DNA of 64,000 bases from assembly GCA_026169535.1 (NCBI GenBank), contig JAPFCU010000037.1, forward strand, positions 1 through 64,000, given 5' to 3'. The notes under the pieces are model-generated. The model saw nothing but the letters and a program-made list of their open reading frames with translations. It ran no database searches and was not told where the DNA came from. This DNA comes from Blautia sp. (GTDB taxonomy: Bacteria > Bacillota > Clostridia > Lachnospirales > Lachnospiraceae). The position numbers were made by a program, and so were the translations under genes. Numbering within the stretch: the first letter of the stretch is position 1; each line of letters starts with the position of its first letter. Of the stretch, positions 1,504 to 25,229 are shown piece by piece.

Positions 1504-3921
1504 TCAGTTTTCTCTCAGGGAGCAGTCTCCTTCTGTTACAGACAGATTTGGACTGTAATATGGATCGCCTTTTTTCAGCTGATCTCCCCACTTTTCCTGA
1601 AATCTTTTTATTTCCTTTTCAAAACGGAACTGTTTTTCCGGTGTGTCCTCCAGACCTCTGGATTTGGATTCATAATGATACAGCTCTGCATAAGGAGTAA
1701 ACACCACCTTCTTACCAAGGGCTCCAGCCTTCATGCAGAGGTCTATATCGTTGAACGCCACCCGGAAGGTCTCGTCAAAGCCCTCCACCATCCGGAAGTC
1801 CTCTGTCTTCATCATCATACAGGCTGCTGTCACTGCGCTGATCTCCTGGACACTGATCATCCTTCCAAAATATCCTGCATCCTCTCTGGATGCGCGGCAC
1901 ATGATATGCCCGGCGATCCCGCCCAGCCCCATGACTACGCCCGCATGCTGAATGGTATCGTCCGGATAATAAAGCTTGGCTCCTACTATGGAAACCTCTT
2001 TCTGCTGACAGATCTGAAGCATCTCCTCCATCCAGTCAGGCGTCAGGATCTCCACATCATTATTCAGAAACAGCAGATATTCTCCTCTTGCCTGTTCTGC
2101 TGCAAAATTATTTATAGAAGAATAATTAAATTCTTTTTCCCAGGTAAGAACTCTCACCTTCGGGAAACGCTGCGGAAGCTTTTCATAATACGCAAAGGTG
2201 GTAGCCTCTTCACTGTTGTTTTCTACGATCAGTACCTCATAATTTTCGTAGGTGCTGCGCTCTGTCAGAGACGAAAGACACAACTCCAGATCGTCAATAT
2301 GGTCTTTATTGGGGATGATAACAGAAATCATTGGTGTTCCCTGAATCTCCACCCGGCTCCGGTACCATCCCGGCCTCTGCGTCATCTCCACCTTTGCAGG
2401 AATTTCCATTCTCCGATAATGCTCCTCCACGGCTTTTCTTCCGGCTTCAAACGCATATGCCTTGCTTTCCGGATCGGCAGCTGTGGAGTCCATATGGCAG
2501 CGCCAGTGATAAAGCACTCTGGGAATATGGATGATTCCGGCAGCATTTTCGCAGCAGCGGAAAATAAAGTCAAAATCCTGCGCCCCGTCAAATTCTTTAC
2601 GGAAATATCCGGCATTTTCCGCCACCTGCCTTTTCACCACAAAAATATGGCAGATATAATTATTTTCTCTCAACCGGAACAGATTAAAATCCGACTTGAA
2701 ATGAGGGTCGAAATAATGCCTGCCGTCCATGCTGATCTTATCCTCATCTGTATAGATCACATCTGCATGTTCATGGTCGTTGACCGCCTTTACAATTTCG
2801 TAAAGTGCGTCCGGCTCCAGTGTATCGTCATGGTCGCAGAGCATCAGGTATTCCCCTCTTGCAAGCTCTATGGCCTTATTGGTGTTCACGGAGATTCCCC
2901 CGTTTTCCTTCAGTTTTTTATAACTGATCCGAACCTCATGCCTGTAATTTTCCTTCAGAAATTCGTATACCTTATCATCCGGGCTTCCGTCAGCCAGACA
3001 CAGCTGCCAGTTCCCGTAAGTCTGTTTTCTTACAGATTCGATCAGTTCCTTCAGATAGGGAAGCGGCGTATTATATAACGGGATCACAATGCTGATCAGA
3101 GGTTTTTTTTCAAAATTTGCATGTTTCTGCTTCCACATCCGGGAACGGCTGACACTGTGACGCTTCAGCCACTGCTCATAATCTCCTGTCTTTTCTTCAG
3201 AATGTTGGAAAAGACGCTTCAGAATCCCCTTTGGCTTTCCATCCTTCAGAAGCTTCTGCACATCGATCTCATGATCTTTCCGGACAGAGGAACCTGTAAA
3301 CCGGAGAATGACTTTTTTCCCGGCAATCTCATCCATAGCAGCAGAAATACGGAATCCGATCTCCCGGTTTTTATATTCTTCGTCAAGCCCTCTCCGTTCC
3401 ACTACATCCGGTCTTCTTCCCCTGCTCATACGGCAGGGAACAGAAGTTTCATCCTCATTGAGAAGCTCTGCATCTGCATCGCCTCTCTGATCCATCGCCC
3501 AGCCCTGTATCTCCAGCATGGTATCATACAGAATCTCCACCCTGTCCATATGATATTCCAGCAGGCTTTCCTGCAGAAAGGCTTCCAGCTCTTCTCTGGA
3601 TTTTTTCCAAACAGAATGAGTCTCCGCGCCGTCAGTCAGGATCAGTTCCACTGTATGATATTTTTGTGCAAGCCTGTCCGCCTCCGGAATACATACTGTA
3701 AACCCCGGAAGAAACTCTCCCAGATCCCGGTCCAGAGCCTGAACCACATCAGGTCTGGGGTATCTTTCCGGAGCCGGAACGGCGATTTCCTCCCCGTCTC
3801 CCAGAAACCGGAATTCCGGAGTCTGTCCGTCTGCGGGCACATACCAGCCTGTAAGGCTCAGAACCTGCCCGTGCCTGTCATCATATTTTTCTTCGTCCAC
3901 ACTGAAGCGCAATTCTTCCAT
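1504..3921 (-). CDS. Large glycosyltransferase with two tandem GT2 domains and an N-terminal accessory region
   Basis: 805 aa; two GT-A starts (PLISIVIPLYNTPLPYL..., PMISVIIPNKDHIDDLELCL...) with DHDD and NNDVEI motifs. Confidence 0.92.
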   Translation of the reverse strand: MEELRFSVDEEKYDDRHGQVLSLTGWYVPADGQTPEFRFLGDGEEIAVPAPERYPRPDVVQALDRDLGEFLPGFTVCIPEADRLAQKYHTVELILTDGAETHSVWKKSREELEAFLQESLLEYHMDRVEILYDTMLEIQGWAMDQRGDADAELLNEDETSVPCRMSRGRRPDVVERRGLDEEYKNREIGFRISAAMDEIAGKKVILRFTGSSVRKDHEIDVQKLLKDGKPKGILKRLFQHSEEKTGDYEQWLKRHSVSRSRMWKQKHANFEKKPLISIVIPLYNTPLPYLKELIESVRKQTYGNWQLCLADGSPDDKVYEFLKENYRHEVRISYKKLKENGGISVNTNKAIELARGEYLMLCDHDDTLEPDALYEIVKAVNDHEHADVIYTDEDKISMDGRHYFDPHFKSDFNLFRLRENNYICHIFVVKRQVAENAGYFRKEFDGAQDFDFIFRCCENAAGIIHIPRVLYHWRCHMDSTAADPESKAYAFEAGRKAVEEHYRRMEIPAKVEMTQRPGWYRSRVEIQGTPMISVIIPNKDHIDDLELCLSSLTERSTYENYEVLIVENNSEEATTFAYYEKLPQRFPKVRVLTWEKEFNYSSINNFAAEQARGEYLLFLNNDVEILTPDWMEEMLQICQQKEVSIVGAKLYYPDDTIQHAGVVMGLGGIAGHIMCRASREDAGYFGRMISVQEISAVTAACMMMKTEDFRMVEGFDETFRVAFNDIDLCMKAGALGKKVVFTPYAELYHYESKSRGLEDTPEKQFRFEKEIKRFQEKWGDQLKKGDPYYSPNLSVTEGDCSLREN

Positions 3922-3934
3922 GTTTTACCTCATC

Positions 3935-6118
3935 CTACTTTTTCTTAATGCTTCTATATAATTTCCAGACCTTTGTATTTTCCATCTGGGTAATCTTTTC
4001 ATTCAGTCTGCGGATTTCCGCATCCTTTTCGGCAGATACTCTGGAAAAATTCTTCCAGAAATCTTCTCTTGCATCTGTTTCTTTCATGGTTCTGATCCGG
4101 ATGCGGAGCTTTGTCTTTCCGGAAACATCCCCGATTACAAACTGAGGGTCACCTCCGCCAAAGTAATATGCTCCCTCTCCCATGGGGAACCCGTTTGCAG
4201 TAAAATCTGCCGGCGTCCCATCCTCATAAGAAAGTTCCTTCAGAATCAGTCCTCCTGCCGCTTCTCCCGGATCCAGGCGCAGTCTGTGTACGCCTTCCGG
4301 AATCCTGATTTCCAGATCCAGTCCTTCCCTGCTCATAGGATAAACGACTGAATCCTCCTCATGGAAGCCTTCTCCCCGGTCAAAAAATACCTGAAGCCTT
4401 CTCTCCGCTCCTGCAAGCCGCATCTGCTCATAATATGGCAGAATCTCTACCTTACCCGGAGAAACCTCTTCATAAAGCTCCAGAAGGGGAACATGATTTC
4501 CTTTCATGTAGTTCTGGAAATTCCGTTCCATTTCCCCGTAAATCTCCATGTCTTTTTCCGTGATCCCGGCTTTTCCGTAAAAATCCCGGTTCTTCAGAAC
4601 GTGACGTTTGCCGTCGCTTTCCAGATAATAATGAATCATACGGTACTGGATGAAATCCGCAGGAATCGGAAAACGGAAGGTCCATTCATAATCAATGACT
4701 ACCTGTCTGTCTCTCTGAATCAGAAGGTTTGCCGGAACAAGATCAATATTGGACATGCCGGAGGCATCATATTCTCCCTCAAGAGGCGCGTCTCCAAATA
4801 CCCGGATAAACTCCGGTGTCTTTCTGAACTTTTCCTCGCTGTGAAGGCTGCGGATCTTTTTCAGATAAAAGAAAAACAAGTCTTCCAGTTCCTGATATTT
4901 TCCCTGTTCCAGAAGCATATCCAGTTTTTCCTCCAGAGTTACTCCCTCCAGATATTCCAGCTTTGCCGCCCCCTGCTCAAACCGGCAGTTATTCAGCTCA
5001 ATACCTTCTTTTTCATAAATTGTGTTCAGCTCTCTCTGGATCCGTTCCAGATTCTTTACATGCTCCTCTGCCTTTGGTACTACCGGAAGCTTCCGTACAT
5101 ATCTCTCATACCGTCCCGGCTCACAGATATCTGTCCGAAGGGCAAACTGCTGGTCTCTTTCATTGGAAAATTTAGAATAGACCACCTCCGGTCTGATCTC
5201 CTCTCTTCCGATCAGCAGAAGGAACGAGTTGGAAAATTCCGGAAACATATCGTTATCCAGAAGAGAGTCATATACCGAGGATTCCTGAAACAGCTGAAGC
5301 CTCAGTCTGTCGAAGTTTGTTTCCATCCGGTTCAGCTCTCCCTTCAGAGGAAGACGTCTGTCGGAATATATAGTCATGGGAAGCTTGTAATCCGGGAAAG
5401 GATAATACCAGCTTGCCTTGAGATTTCCCGCTTTTTCCAGAATATTCGTCAGTTCCTTTTTTGTAAAAGTCTTAACGCCTTTTGTGGAAGGATATCCTTC
5501 CAGTCCCTCAAATAAAGTGCCAAAATGATCCTCTGTGCAGCCTGCCCAGTATTTCAGTCCGAAACGATTTTCAATAGCAAGAATGATCTTTCCCTCCGGC
5601 TTCAGATGACGGGCAATAGTCCTGAGAAAATCCACATAAGGAGTTTCACTCTGAATATAATTTTCCCCATACTCAAAAACGCCGATCAGAGTAATGTAGT
5701 CATACTTCTCCGTCAGCGCAGGCTCGATCTCCTGGAAATTCCCCATGAGAATGGTCAGATTCTCACAGTCTCTGTGTCTCCAGGCATTGATCTCACTTCT
5801 TTTTTTTGAAAGCTCGATACAGGTGACCTTTTTTGCTTTTTTGCAAAGGGCGCCTGTAATCGCTCCACAGCCGGAACCAATCTCCAGCACACTTTCCTTT
5901 CCGGTAAAAGGAAGCCAGCTTAAAATGTTTTCTCTTACATGAGAGAAATGGTAAAGGATGGGCCAGCTTTTCCGCTCTGCGATTACCCGGTTCCATTCCT
6001 CCTCCGGATATGTTCTGGCAATCTGCAACATTTCATCCTCTACACTTCCGTCACTGTATAAATCCTGCCCTGGATAACAGGTATCATCCAGGGTCACCTG
6101 TCCGATCTTTTCTTTCAT
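3935..6118 (-). CDS. SAM-dependent methyltransferase with C-terminal kinase/APH-like region and short coiled coil (WbdD-like architecture)
   Basis: 727 aa; SAM motif VLEIGSGCGAITGAL near aa 77-91; kinase-like NIDLVPANLLIQ...VVIDYEWTF near aa 457-480; C-terminal EKDAEIRRLNEKITQMENTKVWKLYRSIKKK. Confidence 0.8.
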   Translation of the reverse strand: MKEKIGQVTLDDTCYPGQDLYSDGSVEDEMLQIARTYPEEEWNRVIAERKSWPILYHFSHVRENILSWLPFTGKESVLEIGSGCGAITGALCKKAKKVTCIELSKKRSEINAWRHRDCENLTILMGNFQEIEPALTEKYDYITLIGVFEYGENYIQSETPYVDFLRTIARHLKPEGKIILAIENRFGLKYWAGCTEDHFGTLFEGLEGYPSTKGVKTFTKKELTNILEKAGNLKASWYYPFPDYKLPMTIYSDRRLPLKGELNRMETNFDRLRLQLFQESSVYDSLLDNDMFPEFSNSFLLLIGREEIRPEVVYSKFSNERDQQFALRTDICEPGRYERYVRKLPVVPKAEEHVKNLERIQRELNTIYEKEGIELNNCRFEQGAAKLEYLEGVTLEEKLDMLLEQGKYQELEDLFFFYLKKIRSLHSEEKFRKTPEFIRVFGDAPLEGEYDASGMSNIDLVPANLLIQRDRQVVIDYEWTFRFPIPADFIQYRMIHYYLESDGKRHVLKNRDFYGKAGITEKDMEIYGEMERNFQNYMKGNHVPLLELYEEVSPGKVEILPYYEQMRLAGAERRLQVFFDRGEGFHEEDSVVYPMSREGLDLEIRIPEGVHRLRLDPGEAAGGLILKELSYEDGTPADFTANGFPMGEGAYYFGGGDPQFVIGDVSGKTKLRIRIRTMKETDAREDFWKNFSRVSAEKDAEIRRLNEKITQMENTKVWKLYRSIKKK

Positions 6119-7383
6119 ACTTTTTCTCCGTAGTGAATCTCTACTTTCGAGTTCATATCATAAAAACCAACGGTATTTTTATTGGAAACTACCGTAATGT
6201 TACATGCGTCATACAATCTGTGGAAAACGGTGAACTCCCCGTCCTTATACCCTGTACATCCAAAGGACAGAAGATATTCGCCTCCCTGAAGAAACATATC
6301 CTGCCGGAAGGTTACTGTGCAGGTATCGCCTGCTTCCGAATGCTCCACAGCCATTTTTTCAAAAAGAGTGTTGGTTCCTGTGATCTCTGTTCCTTTAATA
6401 TCCTTAAAGGTATAAGCCATGATAGGTTCCTGGATACTCTCATGAAAAACAACCTTCATTTTGATCTGGAAGGAACTTCCTTTTTCAATGGTATTTGTAC
6501 ACAGACCATTCTCATCCAGTACTGCAAAATCCACAATTTCTGCCAGCTTACTGCCATATTCCAGCATATTGGGGTTCACCTGGAACTGCTCGCTCCAATT
6601 CTCCTTCTGGGTTTCCTTATTTTCCTCTGCCTTTGCAGGATCCTGACCCACCAGAAGCTGTTTATACATATCCACCATCTGCTTTGGAGAGCCTTCCTCC
6701 ATTTTTACCCCTTTGTTAAGAAGAATAACCCTGTCGCAATAGCGGGAGATACTGCTGAGATCATGGCTGACAAAAAGAATGGTCCTGCCCATTTTTTTAA
6801 ATTCCTCGAATTTACGGTAACATTTGGCCTGGAAAAATACGTCGCCCACAGACAGAGCCTCATCTACGATCAGGATCTCCGGATCAATGTTGATGGCTAC
6901 CGCAAAAGCCAGACGGACAAACATGCCGCTGGAATATGCTTTTACCGGCTGGTAAACAAAATCTCCGATATCTGCAAAGTCCAGGATATCCTGAAGCCTT
7001 GCGTCTACCTCTTCTCTGGAAAATCCCATCATTGTTCCGTTGAGATAGATGTTTTCGATTCCGGTATATTCCATGTTAAAACCGGCTCCCAACTCCAGAA
7101 GGGCTGAAATCCTGCCGTTTACGGTCACCTCTCCGGCTGTAGGGTTCAGAACTCCGGTAATGATCTTTAAAATCGTAGATTTACCGGAACCATTGGTTCC
7201 GATAATTCCTACCGTCTCTCCCCTCTCCACCTGAAAGTTTACATCCCTGAGGGCATAATGTTCCCTTACAGGCACCTTAAGCCCCAGGGTTTCCCGGAGC
7301 CTGTCAGAAGGTTTGTTATATAGTTTATACATCTTATCCAGATGTTTTACCTGAATTGCAATTTCACTCATCTTACTCTCCAT
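6115..7383 (-). CDS. Polysaccharide ABC exporter ATP-binding protein, Wzt-like, with C-terminal domain
   Basis: 422 aa; Walker A GTNGSGKST, LIVDEALSVGD, plus ~160 aa C-terminal extension of Wzt_C type. Confidence 0.92.
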   Translation of the reverse strand: MESKMSEIAIQVKHLDKMYKLYNKPSDRLRETLGLKVPVREHYALRDVNFQVERGETVGIIGTNGSGKSTILKIITGVLNPTAGEVTVNGRISALLELGAGFNMEYTGIENIYLNGTMMGFSREEVDARLQDILDFADIGDFVYQPVKAYSSGMFVRLAFAVAINIDPEILIVDEALSVGDVFFQAKCYRKFEEFKKMGRTILFVSHDLSSISRYCDRVILLNKGVKMEEGSPKQMVDMYKQLLVGQDPAKAEENKETQKENWSEQFQVNPNMLEYGSKLAEIVDFAVLDENGLCTNTIEKGSSFQIKMKVVFHESIQEPIMAYTFKDIKGTEITGTNTLFEKMAVEHSEAGDTCTVTFRQDMFLQGGEYLLSFGCTGYKDGEFTVFHRLYDACNITVVSNKNTVGFYDMNSKVEIHYGEKV

Positions 7384-8235
7384 TTACATGACATCTGCAA
7401 AGTGTACCTGAAGCTTCTTAAACAGTCGTGTTCCCAGAACAAACAGCAAAATGGTAAATACCCAGAAGTACAGGGTCAGCCATGGATGCTGCCAGATTCC
7501 GATATGGTCGATCAGGGAATCGCGATATCCCTGTACCACATAGAACACAGGATTCAGTTTCAGGATTTTTGTCAGAATCCCTTCAAGACCAAGATCGCTG
7601 AAGTTCCACATGATGGGGGTCACCCACACACCTACCTGCAGACCGATGTTGATGATCTGACTGAGATCACGGAAAAATACCACCACTGCGCTGGAAAAAT
7701 AAGTCACTGCAAGAATCAGCATAAAAATACAGAAGCTGTAATAGATCAGCTGCAGCGCATACCAGGTAGGGGGATAGCCCATACAGGTGTAGATCACAAG
7801 TACGATCAGCACAAAAAAGCAGTGTACAAAAGCTGCTGAAATCACTTTTACCACCGGAAGGATCCGTATATTAAACACTACCTTTTTTACCAGATAATTG
7901 TATTCCAGAAGCGCGTTGGTACCGCCTACCAGTCCATCCTGAAAGAAAAACCAGGGAACCAGACCTGCCACCAGCCACAGCACAAAGGGTACTCCTCTGT
8001 CCGCTCCGCCTCTCAGGGCAAGTCCGAATACAAACCAGTACACACAGATAGTCACAATGGGCTGGATAAAAGCCCAGATGGTTCCGAAATAGGAACCTGC
8101 ATATTTTGTTTTAAAGTCGTTTTTTGCCAGGGAAAATACTAACCTTCTGTTCCGGTAAAGTTCCCCTGGCAGCCAGGTTTCTTTTTTCAATCCTTTTTGC
8201 TCCTGTTTGCGGAATATTCCTGAAAGCTTCCCCAC
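7384..8235 (-). CDS. Polysaccharide ABC exporter permease (Wzm/TagG-like)
   Basis: 283 aa membrane protein, LAKNDFKTKYAGSYFGTIWAFIQPIVTI, adjacent to Wzt-like ATPase. Confidence 0.92.
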   Translation of the reverse strand: MGKLSGIFRKQEQKGLKKETWLPGELYRNRRLVFSLAKNDFKTKYAGSYFGTIWAFIQPIVTICVYWFVFGLALRGGADRGVPFVLWLVAGLVPWFFFQDGLVGGTNALLEYNYLVKKVVFNIRILPVVKVISAAFVHCFFVLIVLVIYTCMGYPPTWYALQLIYYSFCIFMLILAVTYFSSAVVVFFRDLSQIINIGLQVGVWVTPIMWNFSDLGLEGILTKILKLNPVFYVVQGYRDSLIDHIGIWQHPWLTLYFWVFTILLFVLGTRLFKKLQVHFADVM

Positions 8236-8756
8236 TTCTGATCTTTTTCGGACATGATCAGTTCCATTCCCTCAGGAATCGGCCACTCCACTGCAATGTC
8301 CGGATCGTTGTATGCAAGACCGCCCTCATCATTCGGATGATAAAAATCTGTACATTTATAGGCAAATTCTGCGGAATCAGAAAGCACCAGAAAACCATGT
8401 GCAAAATTCTTCGGAATAAAGAACTGTTTTTTGTTCTCCGCAGAAAGCAGCACACCATACCACTGTCCATAGGTAGGAGATCCTTCTCTCAGGTCTACGG
8501 CAACATCAAACACCTCGCCGCTGACTACACGGACCAGTTTATCCTGCGGATAGTTGATCTGGAAATGAAGACCTCTTAAAACGCCTTTTCTGGAACTGGA
8601 CTGATTATCCTGCACAAACTCCTGATCAATTCCTGCCGCCTTATAATCATTATAATTATAAGTCTCCATAAAGTATCCGCGCTCGTCTCCGAACACTGCC
8701 GGCGTAATCACCTTCAGTCCTTCAATATGACAGGTTTCTACTGTGATTTTTCCCAT
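8187..8756 (-). CDS. rfbC: dTDP-4-dehydrorhamnose 3,5-epimerase family protein
   Basis: 189 aa; FGDERGYFMETYN, QDNQSSSRKGVLRGLHFQ, IPKNFAHGFLVLSD motifs. Confidence 0.93.
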   Translation of the reverse strand: MGKITVETCHIEGLKVITPAVFGDERGYFMETYNYNDYKAAGIDQEFVQDNQSSSRKGVLRGLHFQINYPQDKLVRVVSGEVFDVAVDLREGSPTYGQWYGVLLSAENKKQFFIPKNFAHGFLVLSDSAEFAYKCTDFYHPNDEGGLAYNDPDIAVEWPIPEGMELIMSEKDQKWGSFQEYSANRSKKD

Positions 8757-8757
8757 T

Positions 8758-9636
8758 TTATAAGCCCTCCGCTACTTCGATCATATATTTTCCATAAGCA
8801 GTTTTCAGAAGAGGCTGCGCCAGTTCCACAAGCTGCTCTTTTGTGATAAATCCACGTTTATATGCAATTTCCTCAATGCAGGAAATGTAAAGCCCCTGAC
8901 GCTTCTGGAATGCAGAAACAAAGTCAGCTGCATCAAGAAGAGAATCATGATTTCCGGTGTCAAGCCATGCAAAGCCTCTTCCCAGAGTTTCTACTTTGAG
9001 AGTACCTCTATTCAGATATTCGTTGTTAATGCTTGTGATCTCAATCTCCCCTCTTGCAGACGGTTTTACATTTTTGGCAATCTCCACTACATCATTATCA
9101 TAGAAATAAAGTCCCGGAACTGCATAATTAGACTTGGGATTCTCCGGCTTTTCTTCGATAGAAAGGGCCTTTCCGTTTTCGTCAAACTCTACTACTCCAT
9201 ACTCTCTCGGATCTCTTACATAATATCCAAAGATGGTAGCGCCTTTTTCTGTCTCTGTTCTCTGATATGCATTCTGGAGCACTCTGGAAAAACTCTGTCC
9301 ATAGAAAATGTTATCGCCCAGAACAAGAGCCACTGCATCGTTTCCAATAAATTCCTCTCCGATAATAAAAGCGTCTGCCAGCCCTCTCGGCTGCTCCTGC
9401 ACCGCATACTCAAATCTCATTCCCAGCTGTTTTCCGTCTCCAAGAAGTTCCTGAAATACAGGAAGATCTCTCGGTGTGGAAATGATCAGGATCTCACGGA
9501 TCCCTGCCAGCATCAATGTAGAAAGCGGATAGTAGATCATGGGCTTGTCATATACCGGCATGATCTGTTTGGAGATCGCCTTTGTTAATGGATATAATCT
9601 GGTTCCTGAACCGCCTGCTAAAATAATTCCCTTCAT
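8758..9636 (-). CDS. rfbA: Glucose-1-phosphate thymidylyltransferase
   Basis: 292 aa; [46 protein letters not shown]. Confidence 0.97.
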
Positions 9637-9648
9637 ATTTTCTTCTCC

Positions 9649-10932
9649 TTATCGTCTGGATCTGTACATTTTTTTCTCTTTGAAATGCAGTGCCACCATC
9701 AATATCACAAGTATCACTGCCATAACCGCCATTACCCCCAGAAGTATTTTGGAAGTATTGGATAAACCGCTTTCGCCTTCCGTGGACGCTTCAGCCGCTG
9801 CCTCACCGGCCGACTGTGCATTTCCTTCTGCAGATACAGTCTGTGTCACCTGCGGGGTAGGGGAAAATTTTGGAGTCATGAGATAGCCTACAAACTGACC
9901 GCTGTAATAAAACTGATTCATGATCTGTCCGTTTTTTTCTTTTGTTTTTACAGTAAGGTCATCCACAGTAACCCCTTTAGGTACTGTCATATTTTTTCCA
10001 TTTAAAGTTATTGTATCAAAATTATTAAATGCATAATCAAAAAGTGCAATCGTATCGGTACAGTTTGCTCCAAGATCCGGCGCCCGAAGCGTCACCGCTA
10101 TATACGTCCGTCCGTTTCTTTCTGCCGCAGTTACAAGCGTATGTCCGGCATCATTGGTATTTCCGGTCTTTCCGCCAATACATCCTTCATAATAAAGATT
10201 GGACTCCTTTGCCATTAAAGGCATATGAGTATGCATTCCTCTCGCTTCGCTGAGGTTTGTGGCCGGAATAGTATAATTGACTCCGCTGATCACCTGACGG
10301 AATCTGTGATTTCTAAGTCCTGCCCTCATGATCTTTGCCAAATCATGAGCGGTTGTATAGTGATTCGCATCCGGAAGACCGCTGGCATTGGCAAAATGTG
10401 TATTCTTACATCCAATCTCCTTTGCCCTCTGGTTCATCATCTCTATAAACTGGGCCTCTGTACCGCCTACATATTCTGCCATCTGGGCACAGACTTCATT
10501 GGCCGACTTAATGATAGCTGCAAACCAGCAGTCTTTCATGGTAATCGTCTCTCCCAGTTTCATCCCGATGTTTGAACTGTCCCAGGTTACATCTCTGACC
10601 CCGGTTTCTGTAAAAGTAACCGTATCTTTTGGTGAACTGTTTTCGATTGCCGTAAGCACAGTCATGATTTTTGTAGTACTGGCCGGATATCTGTATTCAT
10701 CCATTCCTTTATCATAAAGGACAGCTCCTGTGTCTGCGTCAATAAGCACAGCTGTCTCAGAAACTGTATCAGGACCTTTTGGCCAGCCCTGAATATTATC
10801 TGTAGCTACTGCTGCCGGTGTCCCAAAGTTTACAGTTACTGCCTGTACAGTGGATGCCGGCAGGATCAGGGATATCAGTCCCAGAACTGCAGCACCTGCA
10901 AATTTTTTTCTCATTCTTCTCTCCTCCGTCAA
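9649..10932 (-). CDS. D-alanyl-D-alanine carboxypeptidase (PBP5/DacA-like)
   Basis: 427 aa; signal peptide, PASTTKIMT (SxxK), KSANEVC (SxN), KTGNT (KTG), C-terminal TM helix. Start may be the Met at 10914. Confidence 0.93.
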   Translation of the reverse strand: MTEERRMRKKFAGAAVLGLISLILPASTVQAVTVNFGTPAAVATDNIQGWPKGPDTVSETAVLIDADTGAVLYDKGMDEYRYPASTTKIMTVLTAIENSSPKDTVTFTETGVRDVTWDSSNIGMKLGETITMKDCWFAAIIKSANEVCAQMAEYVGGTEAQFIEMMNQRAKEIGCKNTHFANASGLPDANHYTTAHDLAKIMRAGLRNHRFRQVISGVNYTIPATNLSEARGMHTHMPLMAKESNLYYEGCIGGKTGNTNDAGHTLVTAAERNGRTYIAVTLRAPDLGANCTDTIALFDYAFNNFDTITLNGKNMTVPKGVTVDDLTVKTKEKNGQIMNQFYYSGQFVGYLMTPKFSPTPQVTQTVSAEGNAQSAGEAAAEASTEGESGLSNTSKILLGVMAVMAVILVILMVALHFKEKKMYRSRR

Positions 10933-12056
10933 AACTCAAACGCAAGTATCTTTTCTGTAATATATTCTACATCAGACATAGACAGATTATAAAACATCGG
11001 AAGACGCAGAAGACGTTCACTTTCTTTTGTAGTGTAAACATCTTCGCCAGAAAATCTTCCAAATTTCTCTCCTGCCGGCGAGCTGTGCAGCGGTACATAG
11101 TGAAAGGCTGTGCAAATTCCGTTTTCCTTCAGGTAGGAGATCAGACGGCTCCTTGTTTCAAGGTCTTTTACTTTAATATAATACATATGAGCATTATGCT
11201 TGCATCCTTCCGGAACAACAGGTCTCTGGATCTTCTCCTGTTCCTCCAGACTCTTCAGGCCTTCATTATAATAATCATAGATCTGATGGCGCTTGCCATC
11301 GATCTTTTCTGCTTCCTCAAGCTGGGCATACAGATAAGCCGCATTCATTTCACTTGGAAGATAAGAGGATCCATAATCGATCCATCGGTATTTATCTACC
11401 TGTCCCCGGAAAAATTTACTTCTGTCCGTTCCTTTTTCTCTGAGGATCTCTGCTTTTTCCTGATATTCGTTGTTCTGGAATACCAGAGCACCTCCCTCTC
11501 CCATAGTATAATTTTTTGTCTCATGAAAACTGTAACATCCAAAATCGCCGATAGTTCCAAGAGCCTTTCCGTGGTAATAGGCTTCCACACCCTGGGCAGC
11601 ATCTTCAACTACTTTCAGATCATATTTTTTCGCCAGTTCCATGATCCGGTCCATTTCACAGGAAACACCTGCATAGTGAACCGGCACTATGGCTTTTGTT
11701 TTTTCTGTAACTGCCTGTTCGATCAGCTTTTCATCTATATTCATGGTATCCGGCCGGATGTCCACAAACACGATCTTTGCACCTCGAAGTACAAAAGCAT
11801 CTGCAGTAGATACAAATGTATAAGAAGGCATGATTACCTCATCTCCTGGCTGGATATCGCAAAGATACGCCGCCATCTCCAGTGCGTGTGTGCAGGAAGT
11901 GGTCAGAAACACCTGAGATGCCTGAAATCTTTCTTTCATCCACTGTGAGCAGAGTTTTGTATATTTACCGTCACCGCAGAGCATTCCCTGATCCACGGCA
12001 TCTTTAATATAATTCAGTTCTTTCCCTACAAGTGCAGGTCTGTTAAAATCTATCAT
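10929..12056 (-). CDS. wecE: dTDP-4-amino-4,6-dideoxygalactose transaminase (WecE/RffA-type, DegT/DnrJ/EryC1)
   Basis: 375 aa; IQPGDEVIMPSYTFVSTADAFVLRGAKIVFVDIRPDTMNIDE, YSFHETKNYTMGEGG, REKGTDRSKFFRGQVDKYRWIDYGSSYL closely match recalled E. coli RffA/WecE. Confidence 0.9.
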   Translation of the reverse strand: MIDFNRPALVGKELNYIKDAVDQGMLCGDGKYTKLCSQWMKERFQASQVFLTTSCTHALEMAAYLCDIQPGDEVIMPSYTFVSTADAFVLRGAKIVFVDIRPDTMNIDEKLIEQAVTEKTKAIVPVHYAGVSCEMDRIMELAKKYDLKVVEDAAQGVEAYYHGKALGTIGDFGCYSFHETKNYTMGEGGALVFQNNEYQEKAEILREKGTDRSKFFRGQVDKYRWIDYGSSYLPSEMNAAYLYAQLEEAEKIDGKRHQIYDYYNEGLKSLEEQEKIQRPVVPEGCKHNAHMYYIKVKDLETRSRLISYLKENGICTAFHYVPLHSSPAGEKFGRFSGEDVYTTKESERLLRLPMFYNLSMSDVEYITEKILAFEF

Positions 12057-13021
12057 TCTTTATTTCCCTGTTTTTCTTCATCCTTGTTGTCAGCTGCTTC
12101 AGAAATATTTTCTCTGTCCCGGATCACATACTGAGGTGTTTTGTTCACGTTCAGCATCAGCTTTCCCAGATATTCTCCCACAATACCAAGCATCAGGAAG
12201 CAAATGCCAAACAGTACCAGCATGGCACACATAAGAGAAGACCAGCCGATTGCTATAGAAGGATTCAGCAATTTACGGATAAATACTACTACTGCTCCAA
12301 TAAATCCGGCTGCCGAAAACAATGTTCCAAAAAAAGTTGCAAGCCGGAGAGGAATCACCGTAAAATTCAGACAGGACATAAAAAGCTTCAGCCCTCTCCT
12401 GAAATTATAATTGGAAGTCCCTACCTCTCTTTCAAAATGCTCGATCTCTATATTTGCAATATTGTGTGTGGTACGGAAAAACAGTACCTGAAGAAAGGTA
12501 TTGTACCCGTCATATTTTACAACCTCATCCCTGACATACTTCCGGCAGCACCAGAAACTGCTCATCTGGATATCCTTCGGACGATCCAGAAGATGCCACA
12601 AAAGGAAGCGGCTTACTGCTCCTGTCAGATTTTTAAACCAGGAAAATTTCCTTTGTTTAAAGACTCCAAACACAATGTCATAGCCTTCTTCCATCTTATC
12701 CAAAAACTGCGGAATCTGAGAAGGATGGTTCTGCATATCATCATCCATTCCCAGGATCAGATCTCCCTCTGCATAATTCATTCCTGCCATAATAGCATTA
12801 TGCTGGCCAAAATTTTTTGCAAGGTTGATTCCTTTTACATTCGGGTATTTCTCTGTCAGTCCATGTATGGACTTCCAGGTACCATCTCTGGAATAGTCGT
12901 TTACAAGCACAAACTCACATTCATAATCTTTTAATTTCTCGAACTCTTCTATTGCAAGCTCCACCACCTTGCCGATGGTGTGCTCCGAATTATAGCACGG
13001 TATGACAATCGATACCAGCAT
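12053..13021 (-). CDS. GT2 glycosyltransferase with C-terminal TM helices (ArnC/DPM1-like polyprenyl-phosphate glycosyltransferase)
   Basis: MLVSIVIPCYNSEHTIGKVVELA, ILGMDDDMQNHPSQIP; two C-terminal hydrophobic helices. Start placed at ATG 13021 after GAGGGAGAAAAG. Confidence 0.9.
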   Translation of the reverse strand: MLVSIVIPCYNSEHTIGKVVELAIEEFEKLKDYECEFVLVNDYSRDGTWKSIHGLTEKYPNVKGINLAKNFGQHNAIMAGMNYAEGDLILGMDDDMQNHPSQIPQFLDKMEEGYDIVFGVFKQRKFSWFKNLTGAVSRFLLWHLLDRPKDIQMSSFWCCRKYVRDEVVKYDGYNTFLQVLFFRTTHNIANIEIEHFEREVGTSNYNFRRGLKLFMSCLNFTVIPLRLATFFGTLFSAAGFIGAVVVFIRKLLNPSIAIGWSSLMCAMLVLFGICFLMLGIVGEYLGKLMLNVNKTPQYVIRDRENISEAADNKDEEKQGNKE

Positions 13022-13037
13022 CTTTTCTCCCTCGTTT

Positions 13038-13382
13038 CTATAGGTTAAATATAAAAATCCCTGCAAGGATCAGGGCAAATCCCATAAGTTTCCTTTTGCT
13101 GAATGTTTCTTTCAAAAAGAAATATCCCATCACCGAGACAAAAATATATCCTGTAGATTCCAGAATCGGTGACATAGAAAGCGGCAGATTCCGCAGCGCC
13201 AGCATAGTAAGGATCACAGAGCAGAAAAAAAGGCCGTAGGCTCCGATCACCATAGGATTCAGATATTCCTTCAGCGGGCTGTCATATATTTTATTTGCTG
13301 CTTTTTTGAGGATGATCTGAGAAACAGATGAGATAAATACCGATAAAAGCAGGATACATACAGATATCTGAAAACTGCTCAA
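13038..13382 (-). CDS. Small EamA/SMR-like 4-TM protein (ArnE/ArnF-like subunit)
   Basis: 114 aa, four hydrophobic segments, PILESTGYIFVSVMGYFFLKETFSKRKLMGFALILAGIFIF. Confidence 0.85.
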   Translation of the reverse strand: MSSFQISVCILLLSVFISSVSQIILKKAANKIYDSPLKEYLNPMVIGAYGLFFCSVILTMLALRNLPLSMSPILESTGYIFVSVMGYFFLKETFSKRKLMGFALILAGIFIFNL

Positions 13383-13762
13383 TGTTTCTCACCGCCCTTC
13401 TGCAAATTTTCTGATGTTACCAGATAGATCCCGGCAAAAATAATCACTGCTCCGACGATCATATTCCAGGTAATCTTTTCCTCAAAGATCAGAGCACCCC
13501 AAATAATGCCCCAGATCAGTGTCACAGGGCGGTTGGCATACGCCACCGTCAAGGGCATGCGCTTCAGGATCTGCTGCCAGATCACTGCATATCCGAACAT
13601 GATCACAAATACCAGCCCGAACCAGAAAATAAACTGCAGTGAAAAAATACGGTCGGTATATCCGGAAGCCATTTTAGAACAGACACCACTTAATGAGCTG
13701 AACAAAAGGCTGATATGAAGCAGCAGATATGTACTTTTTTTTGAGTCATGGTCATTTCTCAT
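13379..13762 (-). CDS. Small EamA/SMR-like 4-TM protein, partner of the adjacent gene
   Basis: 127 aa, four hydrophobic segments, IWGALIFEEKITWNMIVGAVIIFAGIYLV; 4-nt overlap with next gene. Confidence 0.85.
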   Translation of the reverse strand: MRNDHDSKKSTYLLLHISLLFSSLSGVCSKMASGYTDRIFSLQFIFWFGLVFVIMFGYAVIWQQILKRMPLTVAYANRPVTLIWGIIWGALIFEEKITWNMIVGAVIIFAGIYLVTSENLQKGGEKH

Positions 13763-13777
13763 GTTATTCTCTCACAA

Positions 13778-14965
13778 TCATACTGTAAATTCAATGTTAA
13801 TTTTCGACAAAATATCCTCCAGACGCTTTTCACATGCATCCAGATTTTCCCCTGTCAGGATCACCTGACCAATACGGTCTCTTCCATTTTCGTAACGGTT
13901 CACCTGATCTCCCGGCTGAATATTAAAAGAAAGATCAATAATATCCTCTGCCGGACTATTTGTATTATGGATTTCTTTTACAATACCGCTTCTGTCCGAA
14001 GTCAATATCCTGGAAAGACTGGACTGCTGCGATTTATGGCCGGCAAATAATTTCTCCGGCTCCATGTCCATGGCAAGCCGCACGATTGCCTCGTAATAAT
14101 TGATTCCGTAATATAAGCCTACTGTTTCTGGCAGGCAGGTTGCTCCCGCCCTTCCCGTAATCTCGATCACATAGATATTTCCATCTTTTTCGATCAGATC
14201 ACAGTTAACGGCACAATTATCAAGCCCTACTGCCTGAATGGCAAGCATTACCTGCTCTTCCACCCTGGCTCCCAATGTCTTCTGTTTTCTGTAAGGAACA
14301 GAATGCCCTATGGGCGTTGGTACATAGCTCTGAAAAGCGTCGATATTGTTGGGAAGGCAGTAAAGAAGCTTTCCATTGGAGATCATAGCTTCACAGCCAA
14401 GAGTTTCGCCCTCAATAAATTCCTCTGCCAGACAGTAATCTTTTCCAGTAGCCTTCATTGTATCTTCATATCGCTCAAATGCTTCTTCTTTTGTATTGCA
14501 CCGGAAGATCCCTCTGCTTCCCATCAGATCCACCGCCTTAAGGACCACAGGAAATTCCAGGCATTCCAGGGCCTCTGCAAGTTCCTGTCTGTTTCGGATG
14601 CAGATATGACGGGCGCAGTTTACCCCGCCTGCCATAAACGCTTCTTTCATTTTAAATTTATTACTGCTGATGTCTGCGGCTTTCGCACTGAGCCCTTTTA
14701 GCCCCAGATGTTCACAGGCATAACCCAGAGCTCTTACTCCGGTATCCAGGCAGCAGGTAGCGATCCCATCCACATGAAATCTTCTTGCCACTTCATATAC
14801 GGCAGCAGGATCTGATATATCTGTATAAGTAAATTCATCTGCTGCCTGAAATCCCGGCCAATCTCCCGGAATACTGGCAGCAACTGTAGAAATGCCAAGT
14901 TTTCCTGCCTCCTCATAAAGAGGCAGCTGAGAATAACTGGCGCCAAGAATCATTATTTTTTTCAT
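13778..14965 (-). CDS. ATP-grasp domain protein (carboxylate-amine ligase type)
   Basis: 395 aa; FPVVLKAVDLMGSRGIFRC, CLAEEFIEGETLGCEAM, NCDLIEKDGNIYVIEITGRAGATCLPE. Confidence 0.88.
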   Translation of the reverse strand: MKKIMILGASYSQLPLYEEAGKLGISTVAASIPGDWPGFQAADEFTYTDISDPAAVYEVARRFHVDGIATCCLDTGVRALGYACEHLGLKGLSAKAADISSNKFKMKEAFMAGGVNCARHICIRNRQELAEALECLEFPVVLKAVDLMGSRGIFRCNTKEEAFERYEDTMKATGKDYCLAEEFIEGETLGCEAMISNGKLLYCLPNNIDAFQSYVPTPIGHSVPYRKQKTLGARVEEQVMLAIQAVGLDNCAVNCDLIEKDGNIYVIEITGRAGATCLPETVGLYYGINYYEAIVRLAMDMEPEKLFAGHKSQQSSLSRILTSDRSGIVKEIHNTNSPAEDIIDLSFNIQPGDQVNRYENGRDRIGQVILTGENLDACEKRLEDILSKINIEFTV

Positions 14966-14967
14966 AA

Positions 14968-17136
14968 TTAAAGATCATTCTCCTCCAGGAAATCAAAAAA
15001 TAAAGGGGTTCCTCCCGTATGGAGAAACAGAATATTCTTATCATGGATCTGGTGTTCTTCCAGATATCTTACCATACCATAAAATGCCTTTCCTGTATAG
15101 GTCATATCAAGAGGTATTCCTTCTTCCCCGTATATTTTTCTGATAATATCCGCTGTTTTAGATGAATATCGTCCGTATCCGTCTCCCAGATATTCGTCCG
15201 TAAAATAAATATGCTCTTTCCAATCTTCCGGAAAGCTATAGCCAAACTTATCTGCATATGCATTAAGATCAGAGGCAATGACCTCTTTTCCCCTTTTTGC
15301 ATTTCGAGAAACAGAGATACCTATGATTTTCCTGTTGTCTCCTGCTTTCAGGCTTCCGGCAAGCAGGCCGGCCTGAGTGGCATTGGTGCTGGATGCCAGA
15401 AAAATATAGTCAAAATGAACTCCTTTTTCTTCTTCCTGGCGGCATATCTCCTCATATGCCTCTGCATAAGCCTCCACAGGAACCCATTCCCGTCCCTGAC
15501 CTTTTTTATTTCCATAAATATAATAAGGTCTGTATCCTTTTTCTGTCAGTTCATCCATAGCCTGCTGTACCGCATGCGCAATCCCTGTTTTTCCGCAGGG
15601 GATTTCCCTTACTCCCATAGCCCGGATCACCCGGCTGTTCTGTGTTTCTTTTTGTTCTTTTATATCTTCTGTATTATGAACCATATAGCAGGGCATTCCC
15701 AGCTTATGGCAAAGAGTTGACAGTATCCGGCAAAGATTAGAATGATAATTTCCATAAATGATCATACTGTCACAATATTCTCTTTTCATATCTTCCAGAA
15801 ATTTCTGAGCAAAGCGAACCTTGTTTCCTCCAAAGGAAAACGGCAGCAGATCGTCTCTCTTCATATAAAAATGATTGCAGGGGATATGTGCTGATGATAT
15901 CTGCCAGCCCGGAATCTCCGGTGCCTTCCAGCTGATTTCTCCTCCGGAAAATCCCAGCTTCTGTACAGGTGTTTCCGGAAGCCCTTCAAGAGGATTTTCC
16001 CATGGACCATGATGAAGCAGTTCTTCCATTTCTTTATGGGAGGCTGCCTGCAGGATAAAAAATCCCGGCCTGCTTCCACTGTCCACAATATCTGCCTTTT
16101 TTGCCTCTCCCTCTATTACCACTTTTCGCAGCTTATCCGGGTGTTTTTCCTGCAGTTCCGCAAGCAGTTTCTCATCATTTTCATTCATAAGAAAACGAAT
16201 GGCAGCCACATGTCTGTCCGCTTCTTTTAATACAGGTGGTTTTCCTGATGCTGTATCTACTACCATTCCCACAAAATCCTGGCCTGTAGAAAGAGGAACA
16301 AGATCTGAACCAATGCAGTCTCCGCCCATACGGGAACCGATCTCAATGATACGGATTTCTCCTTTTTTGCTGATCCGCAGTTCACTATGAGCAGCTCCAC
16401 AGACAATCCCCAACGCATCCAGTGCTCTGAAAACAAGTTTTTTCACTCGGTTTTCCATTTCCTCTGTTAAAGGAGCCGGCTGTATATGAGCCACTTCTAT
16501 ATAATTAGGACTTCCTGTTGTATATTTTTTGGTGACGGCAAGACAGGTGTGACAGCCATTATAGCTTATAGTCTCGACGCTGTACTCTGCCCCCTCTATA
16601 TATTCCTCTATGATCGCCTTTTTTTCAAAAGACTGCGATACGGCATTCATAACAGCATCTGCCAGATCTTCTTCTTTATATACTTTGGTAATTGCCCTAC
16701 TTCCAGAACGGTCTGTAGGCTTCACAATCACAGGATATGACTGTGGACTGTACTTTTCGCCCGCTTCTACTGTTTTAAAAAAGGGTACCGGAATACCGGC
16801 TTCCTGAAAAGCAAGACGCATAGACGCTTTATTGGTTGAATTCCGGATACACTCCCTGCTGTTCCCAGGAAGTCCTAATTCCTCTGCCAGATACTGAACT
16901 GTAATATTTGCCAGATCCGATCCTATGGTTGCCACTGCATCCGGCTGTATCTTTCTGCATATATCCAGAATCTGATCTTTTTCCGTAATACTGATCTCAT
17001 AAAAGAAATCTGCATCCTCTGCACCTGCAGCGCCTTCCCGCCAGGCAAACACATGGGTCTCATATCCCATTTCTTTTGCTTTTTGTATCAAAGGTTTCTG
17101 AAAATCATTGGCTCCAATGATCACGATCTTTTTCAT
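14968..17136 (-). CDS. Fusion: N-terminal ATP-grasp ligase + C-terminal PLP-dependent ACC deaminase/D-cysteine desulfhydrase-like domain
   Basis: 722 aa; ATP-grasp YPVIVKPTDRSGSRAITKV, AIIEEYIEGAEYSVET, IRIIEIGSRMGGDCIG; PLP half FYMKRDDLLPFSFGGNKVRF, IIYGNYHSNLCR, NILFLHTGGTPLFF. Confidence 0.88.
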   Translation of the reverse strand: MKKIVIIGANDFQKPLIQKAKEMGYETHVFAWREGAAGAEDADFFYEISITEKDQILDICRKIQPDAVATIGSDLANITVQYLAEELGLPGNSRECIRNSTNKASMRLAFQEAGIPVPFFKTVEAGEKYSPQSYPVIVKPTDRSGSRAITKVYKEEDLADAVMNAVSQSFEKKAIIEEYIEGAEYSVETISYNGCHTCLAVTKKYTTGSPNYIEVAHIQPAPLTEEMENRVKKLVFRALDALGIVCGAAHSELRISKKGEIRIIEIGSRMGGDCIGSDLVPLSTGQDFVGMVVDTASGKPPVLKEADRHVAAIRFLMNENDEKLLAELQEKHPDKLRKVVIEGEAKKADIVDSGSRPGFFILQAASHKEMEELLHHGPWENPLEGLPETPVQKLGFSGGEISWKAPEIPGWQISSAHIPCNHFYMKRDDLLPFSFGGNKVRFAQKFLEDMKREYCDSMIIYGNYHSNLCRILSTLCHKLGMPCYMVHNTEDIKEQKETQNSRVIRAMGVREIPCGKTGIAHAVQQAMDELTEKGYRPYYIYGNKKGQGREWVPVEAYAEAYEEICRQEEEKGVHFDYIFLASSTNATQAGLLAGSLKAGDNRKIIGISVSRNAKRGKEVIASDLNAYADKFGYSFPEDWKEHIYFTDEYLGDGYGRYSSKTADIIRKIYGEEGIPLDMTYTGKAFYGMVRYLEEHQIHDKNILFLHTGGTPLFFDFLEENDL

Positions 17137-17275
17137 TTTTTAACACCCTCGTTTCTGTTCTGTCTTATATTTTATCATTTTATCTCCCGTCTTTCCACAG
17201 GATTTTAAAGTCTCTCCAAATACGCTTTGCGTGTCATCCTCAGACAGTCTTATCCCTCATAAACAAAATAACAAA

Positions 17276-17371: not shown

Positions 17372-18454
17372 TTATTTTGTTTTGTACATATCTTCGTAAT
17401 ATTTCTGGTAATCTCCACTGGTCACATTTTTCATCCAGTCCTCATTTTCAAAGAACCATTTAATGGTCAGACGGATACCGTCTTCAAAACAGGTTTCCGG
17501 ATACCAGCCTACTTCTTCTTTGATCTTATCCGGAGCAATGGCATAACGACGGTCATGACCCTTACGGTCTTCTACATAGGTGATCAGATTTTCACTGACA
17601 AGTTCTCTTCTTGGATCTCCTTCCGGAAGCATCTCCTGAAGAGTATCCAAAATAATATGGATAATCTGGATATTCTGCTTTTCATTATGTCCGCCGATAT
17701 TATAGGTTTCAAAAAGACGTCCTTTTTCCTGAACCATATCAATGCCTTTTGCATGATCCATAACATACAGCCAGTCACGGACATTTTTACCATCACCATA
17801 TACCGGAAGCTTCTTACCCTGAAGGGCATTATTGATGATAAGCGGAATCAGTTTTTCCGGGAACTGGTATGGTCCATAGTTGTTGCTGCAGTTTGTAATA
17901 TTCGCCGGGAATTTATAAGTATCCATATAAGATTTCACCAGCATATCTGAAGATGCCTTACTTGCTGAATAAGGGCTGTGTGGATCATAGGGAGTGGTTT
18001 CATAGAAAAATCCACCCTCATCCTCAAGAGAACCGTACACCTCATCTGTAGAAACATGAAGGAATTTTTTGTCCGGTTTAAAAGTTCCGTCCGGAAGCTC
18101 CCATGCAGATTTTGCTGCATTAAGCATAACCAGAGTTCCCAGTACATTTGTCTTTACAAACACTTCCGGATTACGGATACTTCTGTCTACGTGACTTTCC
18201 GCCGCAAAATGAACAACACGGTCAATATCATTTTCATCGAAAATCTTCATAATTGCTTCGCTGTCACAGATATCCGCTTTTACAAAGGTATAGTTCTCCC
18301 TGTTTTCAACATCTTTCAGATTTTCCAAATTTCCTGCATAAGTCAGCTTGTCCACATTGATAATGCGGATCTCATTGTCATATTTCTGAAACATGTAGTG
18401 GATATAGTTGGATCCAATAAATCCTGCTCCGCCTGTTACCAGATATGTTCTCAT
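17372..18454 (-). CDS. rfbB: dTDP-glucose 4,6-dehydratase
   Basis: MRTYLVTGGAGFIGSNYIHYM, DRSIRNPEVFVKTNVLGT, YSASKASSDM; start at second Met chosen for SD CAGGAGG. Confidence 0.96.
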   Translation of the reverse strand: MRTYLVTGGAGFIGSNYIHYMFQKYDNEIRIINVDKLTYAGNLENLKDVENRENYTFVKADICDSEAIMKIFDENDIDRVVHFAAESHVDRSIRNPEVFVKTNVLGTLVMLNAAKSAWELPDGTFKPDKKFLHVSTDEVYGSLEDEGGFFYETTPYDPHSPYSASKASSDMLVKSYMDTYKFPANITNCSNNYGPYQFPEKLIPLIINNALQGKKLPVYGDGKNVRDWLYVMDHAKGIDMVQEKGRLFETYNIGGHNEKQNIQIIHIILDTLQEMLPEGDPRRELVSENLITYVEDRKGHDRRYAIAPDKIKEEVGWYPETCFEDGIRLTIKWFFENEDWMKNVTSGDYQKYYEDMYKTK

Positions 18455-18554
18455 ATTATTTTCCTCCTGAGAAGAGGCTGTCACTTCTCCTGCAGCCTTA
18501 GATCGATATTAAGTGTCTCTCTTCGGAACAGTTTTGCAACAGCCTCCTTTTTAA

Positions 18555-24717: not shown

Positions 24718-25229
24718 TTTCGATTACCTCCTGCTGTTCCTCTGCCAGCGCTTCTTTTTTCTTCCCGTGTATAGATCTTGCTTAATTCTGTAAGCTGTAT
24801 GTAATATTCTTTTACACTTTTTTTGGCTTTATAATATTTCACAGAATACTGTATATATGTCAGGATAGAATATCCCACAAGTGCTGCCACATAACCAACG
24901 ATTATGTAGATTCCCATAGAAACCAGATCCATCTTATGAAGATTCCCCATCAGATATTCACCAAAATAAACGGCCACAGCTGCAACAGCCATGATGTATC
25001 CGATAGTTACAAGAAAGAAATTCTTGATCAGTGCCAGACCGATATAATCACTCCTGTAGTATTTGCTGACCGGAAGGTATTTCCTGCCCTTGCCCTGCTC
25101 ATACATGGCAATCTTTGTCATTATCTTTACCTTTTCCTCATTGATCATAATCTGCTCCTCAATCAAACATACATTCTCAGACAGCCTGTCTGAACTCTCC
25201 TCTATTATCTGTTTTTCACAAACAGACAC
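24714..25229 (-). CDS. Uncharacterised membrane protein
   Basis: 171 aa with two hydrophobic helices; 4-nt overlap with downstream gene. Confidence 0.8.
   Translation of the reverse strand: MSVCEKQIIEESSDRLSENVCLIEEQIMINEEKVKIMTKIAMYEQGKGRKYLPVSKYYRSDYIGLALIKNFFLVTIGYIMAVAAVAVYFGEYLMGNLHKMDLVSMGIYIIVGYVAALVGYSILTYIQYSVKYYKAKKSVKEYYIQLTELSKIYTREEKRSAGRGTAGGNRK

Follow-up and report, generated by a model that had tools for sequence, protein, structure and literature searches.

An Exchangeable ATP-Grasp/PLP-Enzyme Cassette Predicted to Acylate a Lipid-Linked Amino Sugar for the Surface Glycan of Blautia

Locus and Proposed Pathway

Which surface group does a Blautia build when two ATP-grasp ligases and a pyridoxal phosphate (PLP) enzyme stand among its genes for a lipid-linked 4-amino sugar? 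The question is raised by a locus in bases 1–64000 (the window) of the 79,689-base contig C12 of a Blautia sp. genome (G000) that is 90% complete. Here, a sequence-only reading had claimed a run of six tightly packed, co-directional genes at 10929–17136, encoding an ATP-grasp/PLP fusion, a second ATP-grasp ligase (AG2), two small EamA proteins (EamA1 and EamA2), an ArnC-like glycosyltransferase of family 2 (GT2) and a WecE-type transaminase. All six genes were found on the minus strand in the claimed order, with gaps of 2–16 bases or overlaps of 4 bases between them. The co-occurrence that the same reading had wished to see checked was also observed within Blautia, as the order is the same in many Blautia genomes, which excludes chance as the source of the run. 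Its extent had been underestimated, with RmlB encoded upstream and, on the downstream side, DacA, RmlA, RmlC, Wzm, Wzt and genes for building the glycan (Table 1).

The model that is considered probable, with a good deal of room left for others, is that the cassette makes, acylates, lipid-loads and flips 4-amino-4,6-dideoxygalactose (Fuc4N), which YfhO then transfers to a surface glycan. RmlA, RmlB and WecE would yield dTDP-Fuc4N, the PLP (PALP) domain of the fusion would supply or tailor an acid for ligation, and AG2 and the fusion ATP-grasp would ligate this amino acid or related acid to the 4-amino group. The ArnC-type GT2 would move the sugar onto polyprenyl phosphate, the antiparallel EamA1/EamA2 pair would flip the lipid-linked product, and a C-fold glycosyltransferase (GT-C) of the YfhO family, encoded just past the contig end, would pass it to a rhamnose-containing glycan exported by Wzm/Wzt. 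The cassette of ATP-grasp, PLP enzyme, GT2 and EamA genes would be exchanged at a fixed site, with WecE retained. The DNA itself shows which enzymes are encoded, that their residues are intact and their genes linked, and that there is a GT-C gene; from these we infer acylation, the role of PALP, loading, flipping and transfer.

Supply of dTDP-Fuc4N

The reaction of WecE is established, and RmlA, RmlB and WecE together yield dTDP-Fuc4N in the branch leading to enterobacterial common antigen (PMC7439462). Bioinformatics analysis revealed that WecE of the window exceeds both curated NCBIfam cut-offs (PRK11706, 635 against 375 bits; TIGR02379, 622 against 435 bits), matches solved WecE structures, PDB 4piw among them, and carries a PLP lysine (K181) that is invariant among orthologs. 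As the family cut-offs are passed, dTDP-Fuc4N is the expected product. RmlA and RmlB, which supply the substrate of WecE, are encoded in the same cluster; in many relatives RmlB heads the cassette, and RmlA is its conserved neighbor. The predicted production of dTDP-Fuc4N by these three enzymes is strongly supported, and the earlier claim that a dTDP-4-amino-4,6-dideoxyhexose is synthesized here was upheld.

Exchange of the Cassette across Blautia

AG2 was detected in 33 of 64 Blautia genomes, and in 27 of them it lies at most 6 kb from WecE. The cassette occurs in several types: type A, that of the window, has the fusion and AG2; type B has an ATP-grasp and AG2 without PALP; in type C, AG2 is fused to PALP; type D has a separate PALP with GT2, an AG2-like protein and the EamA pair; and type F has AG2 without PALP. 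Type E, found in 10 genomes, has an ATP-grasp of another clade, a 323-aa protein, and a GT2 and EamA pair of its own. Compared with the window, the GT2 of type E is only about 30% identical and its EamA proteins 34–41%, whereas WecE is 65–85% identical. That the cassette is exchanged while WecE is kept suggests that the identity of the N-acyl group on Fuc4N is determined by the cassette. The joint replacement of all four components (ligase, PLP enzyme, GT2 and flippase) beside a constant WecE is the best argument that GT2 and the flippase handle the product of the ligase.

The conserved type E protein (320–345 aa, no Pfam family; L099:11268–12239, with orthologs in L100–L107 and L149) was not identified as a DegT relative by profile comparison (hhalign probability, 0.7). 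Its structural model, of moderate confidence (pLDDT 71), matches sugar aminotransferases (Foldseek E-value, 2e-9; TM-score, 0.55), so that in its modeled fold it resembles a DegT-like PLP enzyme.

ATP-Grasp Ligases

The fusion consists of an ATP-grasp ligase (residues ~1–375) followed by a PALP fold-type II PLP enzyme (residues ~415–716). Its ATP-grasp part has the L-amino acid ligase 3vot as the nearest solved chain, and AG2 is related to an uncharacterized structure (PDB 4dim; 353 bits). Acidic and arginine residues are invariant among the orthologs of both proteins (D256, E268 and R272 in AG2; E252, E265 and R269 in the fusion). The fold, these residues and, in AG2, the C-terminal domain place the two proteins in the L-amino acid ligase (LAL) type of ATP-grasp enzymes; PF18603 (LAL_C2) is present in AG2 but was undetected in the fusion by the Pfam search. 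In the ATP-grasp tree, AG2 forms a single clade of 23 rows, and it occurs in cassette types A, B, C, D and F.

Aminoacylated 4-amino sugars are known from bacterial glycans (PMC3210612). Given this precedent, the gene linkage, the intact ligase residues and the lack of a nearby N-acetyl- or N-formyltransferase, AG2 and the fusion ATP-grasp are inferred to acylate the 4-amino group of Fuc4N with an amino acid or related acid. The two ligases of type A may correspond to two residues or to two alternative acids. A literature search on amino-acid ligases with Fuc4N found nothing relevant.

PLP Enzyme of the Fusion

The claim of an ATP-grasp/PLP fusion was borne out, and the type of the PLP part can now be specified: it is a PF00291 domain of the D-cysteine desulfhydrase/1-aminocyclopropane-1-carboxylate (ACC) deaminase type and not an aminotransferase. 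The nearest solved chain is D-cysteine desulfhydrase 4d8t, and the domain misses all family cut-offs (TIGR01275, 140 against 289 bits; CuyA, 158 against 450 bits). The PLP lysine K439, the Ser-Asn loop S466–N467, Y654 and Y680 are invariant among orthologs; on the basis of an alignment to 4d8t and 1rqx, we take them to correspond to the catalytic residues of ACC deaminase.

The partnership with ATP-grasps is also seen outside the Blautia cassette. Among loci with close PALP relatives in other Clostridia, 10 of 13 have a PylC-like ATP-grasp, directly adjoining in nine, and the setting is usually a polysaccharide locus with glycosyltransferases and DegT transaminases. Generic PALP relatives have such an ATP-grasp in 1 of 20 loci (Fisher p = 3e-5 between the two groups). 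The ATP-grasp profile used was partly built from six of the close-relative loci, and four of the ten positive ones (L091, L125, L126 and L127) are independent of it; in the midpoint-rooted tree, the PALP of L127 lies on the side of the generic relatives, and that of L097 is interrupted by a contig end. The D-cysteine-desulfhydrase-like clade adjoining PylC-like ATP-grasps comprises L038, L042, L090–L093, L096 and L125–L127. Within Blautia, the PALP domains of types A and C are sisters in the tree, yet they are joined to different ATP-grasp clades.

An acetyltransferase of the GNAT family adjoins PALP in L092 and L125 and, judged from position and length only, in L126, whereas in L093 a GNAT-like domain, as read from the sequence, is apparently fused to PALP. 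This arrangement would fit N-acetylaminoacyl groups, which are known on 4-amino-4,6-dideoxyglucose (Qui4N) and 3-amino-3,6-dideoxyglucose (Qui3N) (PMC3210612). A structural model of the fusion was too weak (pLDDT 62, pTM 0.46) for the spatial arrangement of its two active sites to be derived.

It is tentatively proposed, as a possibility that falls short of even chances, that a distinct D-cysteine-desulfhydrase-like PLP clade is dedicated to surface polysaccharides, where it would make or tailor an amino acid outside the standard set, possibly of D configuration, for the partner or fused ATP-grasp to join to a 4-amino sugar. In Blautia, the acyl cassette, the matching GT2 and the small paired flippase would then be swapped together at one constant locus, varying the surface group. 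In the collection of papers searched, none was found that combines ATP-grasp, cysteine desulfhydrase and polysaccharide.

Lipid Loading and Flipping

The best solved matches of GT2, over its full length, are ArnC (9hwj and 9bhc) and the GtrB-type protein sll0501, and its two C-terminal transmembrane (TM) helices were counted in orthologs. These matches mark it as an ArnC/PgfS-type enzyme that transfers a sugar to polyprenyl phosphate, in line with the lipid loading that had been put forward for it. In NCBIfam, ArnC and PgfS are tied, and the score of 166 bits is far under the ArnC cut-off of 529; thus, the family cannot name the sugar. The most likely start of the gene is ATG 13021, preceded by GAGGGAG, rather than TTG 13066.

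EamA1 has ArnE as the best NCBIfam match (36 bits, cut-off 92), and EamA2 has ArnF, EbrA and ArnE, all under the cut-off (ArnF, 31 against 99 bits). By hand count, EamA1 has seven Lys/Arg residues inside and three outside, and EamA2 eight inside and one outside. Scripted topology prediction gave opposite charge bias in most of the orthologs, with only three TM helices found in most EamA1 proteins. Opposite charge bias is expected of a two-gene antiparallel transporter, and by this measure the adjacent 4-TM proteins are a paired small transporter of the ArnE/ArnF kind, which supports the predicted flippase function that had been suggested for them. According to a review of small multidrug-type transporters, lipid flippases of the EamA-pair kind are mainly found in Proteobacteria (PMC9574504).

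GtrA was considered as the flippase and rejected: the one clear GtrA (C11:150065) adjoins another YfhO-like gene on contig C11. This second YfhO-like protein (944-aa frame) and the GtrA next to it (G000:C11:146457–150418; L123, L063, L064) probably constitute a three-component glycosylation system of the conventional kind, distinct from the one described here.

Terminal Transferase

As no GT-C transferase is visible in the run, the sequence-only reading had placed an ArnT-like enzyme outside the window. The location was supported and the ArnT-like identity was not. In relatives, a membrane protein of 820–890 aa with a YfhO domain (PF09586; 211 and 217 bits) lies about 10 kb downstream of the cassette, after the glycan genes and usually behind RmlD. 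Contig C44 of the same genome starts inside RmlD, by which, judged from synteny, it continues the locus past base 1 of the window; its YfhO gene (G000:C44:536–3103), behind RmlD, is 93% identical to the syntenic copy. The ArnT-family PMT_2 (PF13231) was not detected in this 90% complete genome and is present in only two of nine genomes searched, so that ArnT/PMT_2 was dropped as the missing transferase in favor of YfhO.

YfhO was found in 26 of 64 Blautia genomes. AG2 is also present in 25 of these (Fisher p = 8e-10, with no correction for phylogeny), and in the remaining one the contig is truncated at EamA1 of an EamA1–EamA2–ArnC–WecE run. PMT_2 holds the position of YfhO in G013, G435 and G458, and thus can take its place where YfhO is absent; this assignment of the position leaves out G432, G451, G457, G459 and G015. 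For multi-component transmembrane glycosylation systems, two GT-C families have been named, YfhO and PMT_2 (PMC8035078).

The acceptor is likely the glycan exported by Wzm/Wzt, to judge from the position of the genes, and the presence of RmlA, RmlB, RmlC and RmlD implies that it contains rhamnose.

Comparison with Known Systems

The designation Arn-like holds for the mode of working and fails for the operon. Like E. coli Arn (ArnBCADTEF), the locus combines a 4-amino sugar, an ArnC-type GT2 and a split small flippase (ArnE/ArnF in E. coli); unlike Arn, it uses WecE and a dTDP sugar where Arn has ArnB and a UDP pentose, has YfhO in the place of ArnT, and contains ATP-grasp ligases in addition. 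None of the curated cut-offs for Arn proteins is reached (ArnB, 208 against 631 bits; ArnC, ArnE and ArnF likewise below), by which the module works like Arn without being an Arn operon. No ArnA formyltransferase/decarboxylase or ArnD deformylase was found in the cluster or its neighbors, with no genome-wide search made. With YfhO in place of ArnT, the locus belongs rather to the multi-component transmembrane glycosylation systems, in a Gram-positive version in which an ArnE/F-like pair replaces GtrA. A GT2 with two C-terminal TM helices and a YfhO or PMT_2 GT-C in the same locus agree with this class, and the EamA pair stands where a GtrA-type or Wzx flippase would be expected. The closest likeness is CsbB-GtcA-YfhO of B. 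subtilis and S. aureus (PMC8035078, PMC7389260), in which a membrane-linked GT2 loads C55-P, a flippase follows, and a YfhO/PMT_2 GT-C acts on a cell-wall polymer; Blautia differs in the EamA pair and in the donor dTDP-Fuc4N, probably acylated by the cassette ATP-grasps.

As in the RmlA-RmlB-WecE-WecD branch of enterobacterial common antigen (PMC7439462), dTDP-Fuc4N is the expected product of RmlA, RmlB and WecE, but the Blautia cluster lacks the acetyltransferase WecD, and Fuc4N would go to polyprenyl monophosphate, whereas in the enterobacterial pathway it goes to lipid II of the antigen. The TupA-like ATP-grasp Cj1438 of C. jejuni (PMC11800379) is also an amide ligase that modifies a capsule sugar, and its pathway likewise includes PLP enzymes; it amidates the carboxylate of glucuronic acid, whereas the Blautia enzymes, of another ATP-grasp type, would acylate a sugar amine. 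Clostridium polysaccharide operons such as that of CA_C2189 (PMC4000134) likewise have an ATP-grasp aminoacyl ligase amid amino-sugar genes, but no WecE-GT2-EamA cassette and no PALP partner are described for them. The assembly line thus appears to be known in kind, and the tagging by ATP-grasp and PLP enzyme and its swapping between species appear undescribed.

Alternative Explanations

Several observations weigh against the proposed model. In G003, G018, G019 and G438, the site retains WecE, and its vicinity is free of an ATP-grasp, EamA or GT2 cassette, by which Fuc4N is usable without the cassette. In G451 (L115, L116), a ligase–EamA–GT2–DacA cassette lies 42 kb from WecE, in G433, G434 and G464 the cassettes are far from WecE or on another contig, an AG2 ortholog (41%) in G138 (L083) sits with other genes and no WecE, and PALP is missing from types B and F. 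WecE of G451 stays at the usual site beside its own DacA; the neighbors of AG2 in G138 are an MFS transporter, a sugar-transfer ATP-grasp, an octopine-dehydrogenase-like protein and a MatE protein. The existence of Blautia with WecE and no ATP-grasp, together with the logic of Arn, would fit a lipid-linked sugar that is unmodified Fuc4N, its free amine giving a cationic surface like that of aminoarabinose, with the ligases modifying another sugar of the glycan. This is given little credence, since GT2 and the EamA pair change with the ATP-grasp, with WecE constant, as expected if they handle the product of the ligase.

ATP-grasp ligases make peptidoglycan bridges in some species, and the module is flanked by YkuD (L,D-transpeptidase) and S11 carboxypeptidase genes, so that the ATP-grasps and PALP might serve peptidoglycan or a free peptide, with these wall enzymes as true partners and WecE, GT2 and EamA merely sharing the operon. 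Such a role also has only a small chance of being correct: the carboxypeptidase (DacA), a usual yet inconstant neighbor, is lacking in types B and F and in G002, YkuD borders the site even without the cassette, PALP and ATP-grasp recur in capsule-type loci lacking both wall enzymes, and type E exchanges the ATP-grasp along with GT2 and the EamA pair. A different acyl group within the same logic is unlikely, though less so, namely that the ATP-grasps attach to Fuc4N a non-amino acid, a 2-oxo or hydroxy acid released by the deaminase-type PALP. D-cysteine desulfhydrase, D-cysteate sulfo-lyase and ACC deaminase, to which PALP is closest, all release 2-oxo acids, and hydroxyacyl groups are common on Qui4N in bacterial glycans (PMC3210612); on the other hand, the ATP-grasps are nearest to L-amino acid ligases, and GNAT beside or fused to PALP (L092, L093, L125 and L126) would fit capping of an alpha-amine.

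Other Features of the Window

Table 1. Genes of the cassette and of the adjoining glycan locus.
Feature	Coordinates	Strand	Evidence
RmlB, dTDP-glucose 4,6-dehydratase	17372..18484	-	TIGR01181 483 bits, cut-off 365
ATP-grasp/PLP fusion, 722 aa	14968..17136	-	PF13535 86 bits, PF00291 95 bits
AG2, second ATP-grasp ligase with LAL_C2 domain, 395 aa	13778..14965	-	PF18603 51 bits
EamA1, small 4-TM half-flippase, 127 aa, predicted N-inside	13379..13762	-	PF00892
EamA2, small 4-TM half-flippase, 114 aa, predicted N-outside	13038..13382	-	PF00892
ArnC/PgfS/GtrB-type polyprenyl-phosphate GT2, two C-terminal TM helices	12053..13021	-	PF00535
WecE, dTDP-4-keto-6-deoxyglucose transaminase, 375 aa	10929..12056	-	PRK11706, TIGR02379
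DacA-like S11 D-Ala-D-Ala carboxypeptidase, overlaps wecE	9649..10932	-	PF00768 172 bits
RmlA, dTDP-glucose pyrophosphorylase	8758..9636	-	PF00483 263 bits
RmlC, dTDP-4-dehydrorhamnose 3,5-epimerase (rhamnose branch)	8187..8756	-	TIGR01221 255 bits, cut-off 156
Wzm, ABC-2 polysaccharide exporter permease	7384..8235	-	PF01061
Wzt, exporter ATPase, glycan-binding C-terminal domain	6115..7383	-	PF14524 148 bits, PF00005
Methyltransferase-containing 727-aa protein, glycan locus	3935..6118	-	PF13489, PF08242
Tandem GT2 glycosyltransferase, glycan locus	1504..3921	-	PF00535 twice
Second tandem GT2, leaves window at base 1	1-1494 (open-ended open reading frame)		

The YkuD protein (18555–21083) has choline- or glucan-binding-type repeats, and at its spot relatives have additional repeat-bearing wall proteins inserted. 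Adjoining genes at 23605–24717 and 24714–25229 encode two proteins (370 aa and 171 aa) to which no Pfam family is assigned; relatives of the former have about 7–9 TM helices, and the pair adjoins CdaA-YbbR across Blautia. Scans for promoters and terminators gave weak consensus matches only, and the site at 17197–17169 before the fusion was not counted as evidence. Plus-strand open reading frames at 34–438 and 706–1110 were rejected as genes, being antisense to a GT2 gene.

Significance

Blautia is an abundant gut genus, and in the related Lachnospiraceae species R. gnavus, surface glycans drive strain-specific immune responses (PMC12413058). If the proposed model is true, it would trace an aminoacylated amino sugar on the Blautia surface to genes that can be tested, add a paired small-transporter flippase cooperating with a YfhO transferase in a Gram-positive bacterium, and predict a function for a clade of PLP enzymes and for the uncharacterized structure 4dim. 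With the cassette exchanged and WecE retained, the acyl groups on display would differ between Blautia species, and their surface chemistry would be readable from genomes through the swappable cassette.

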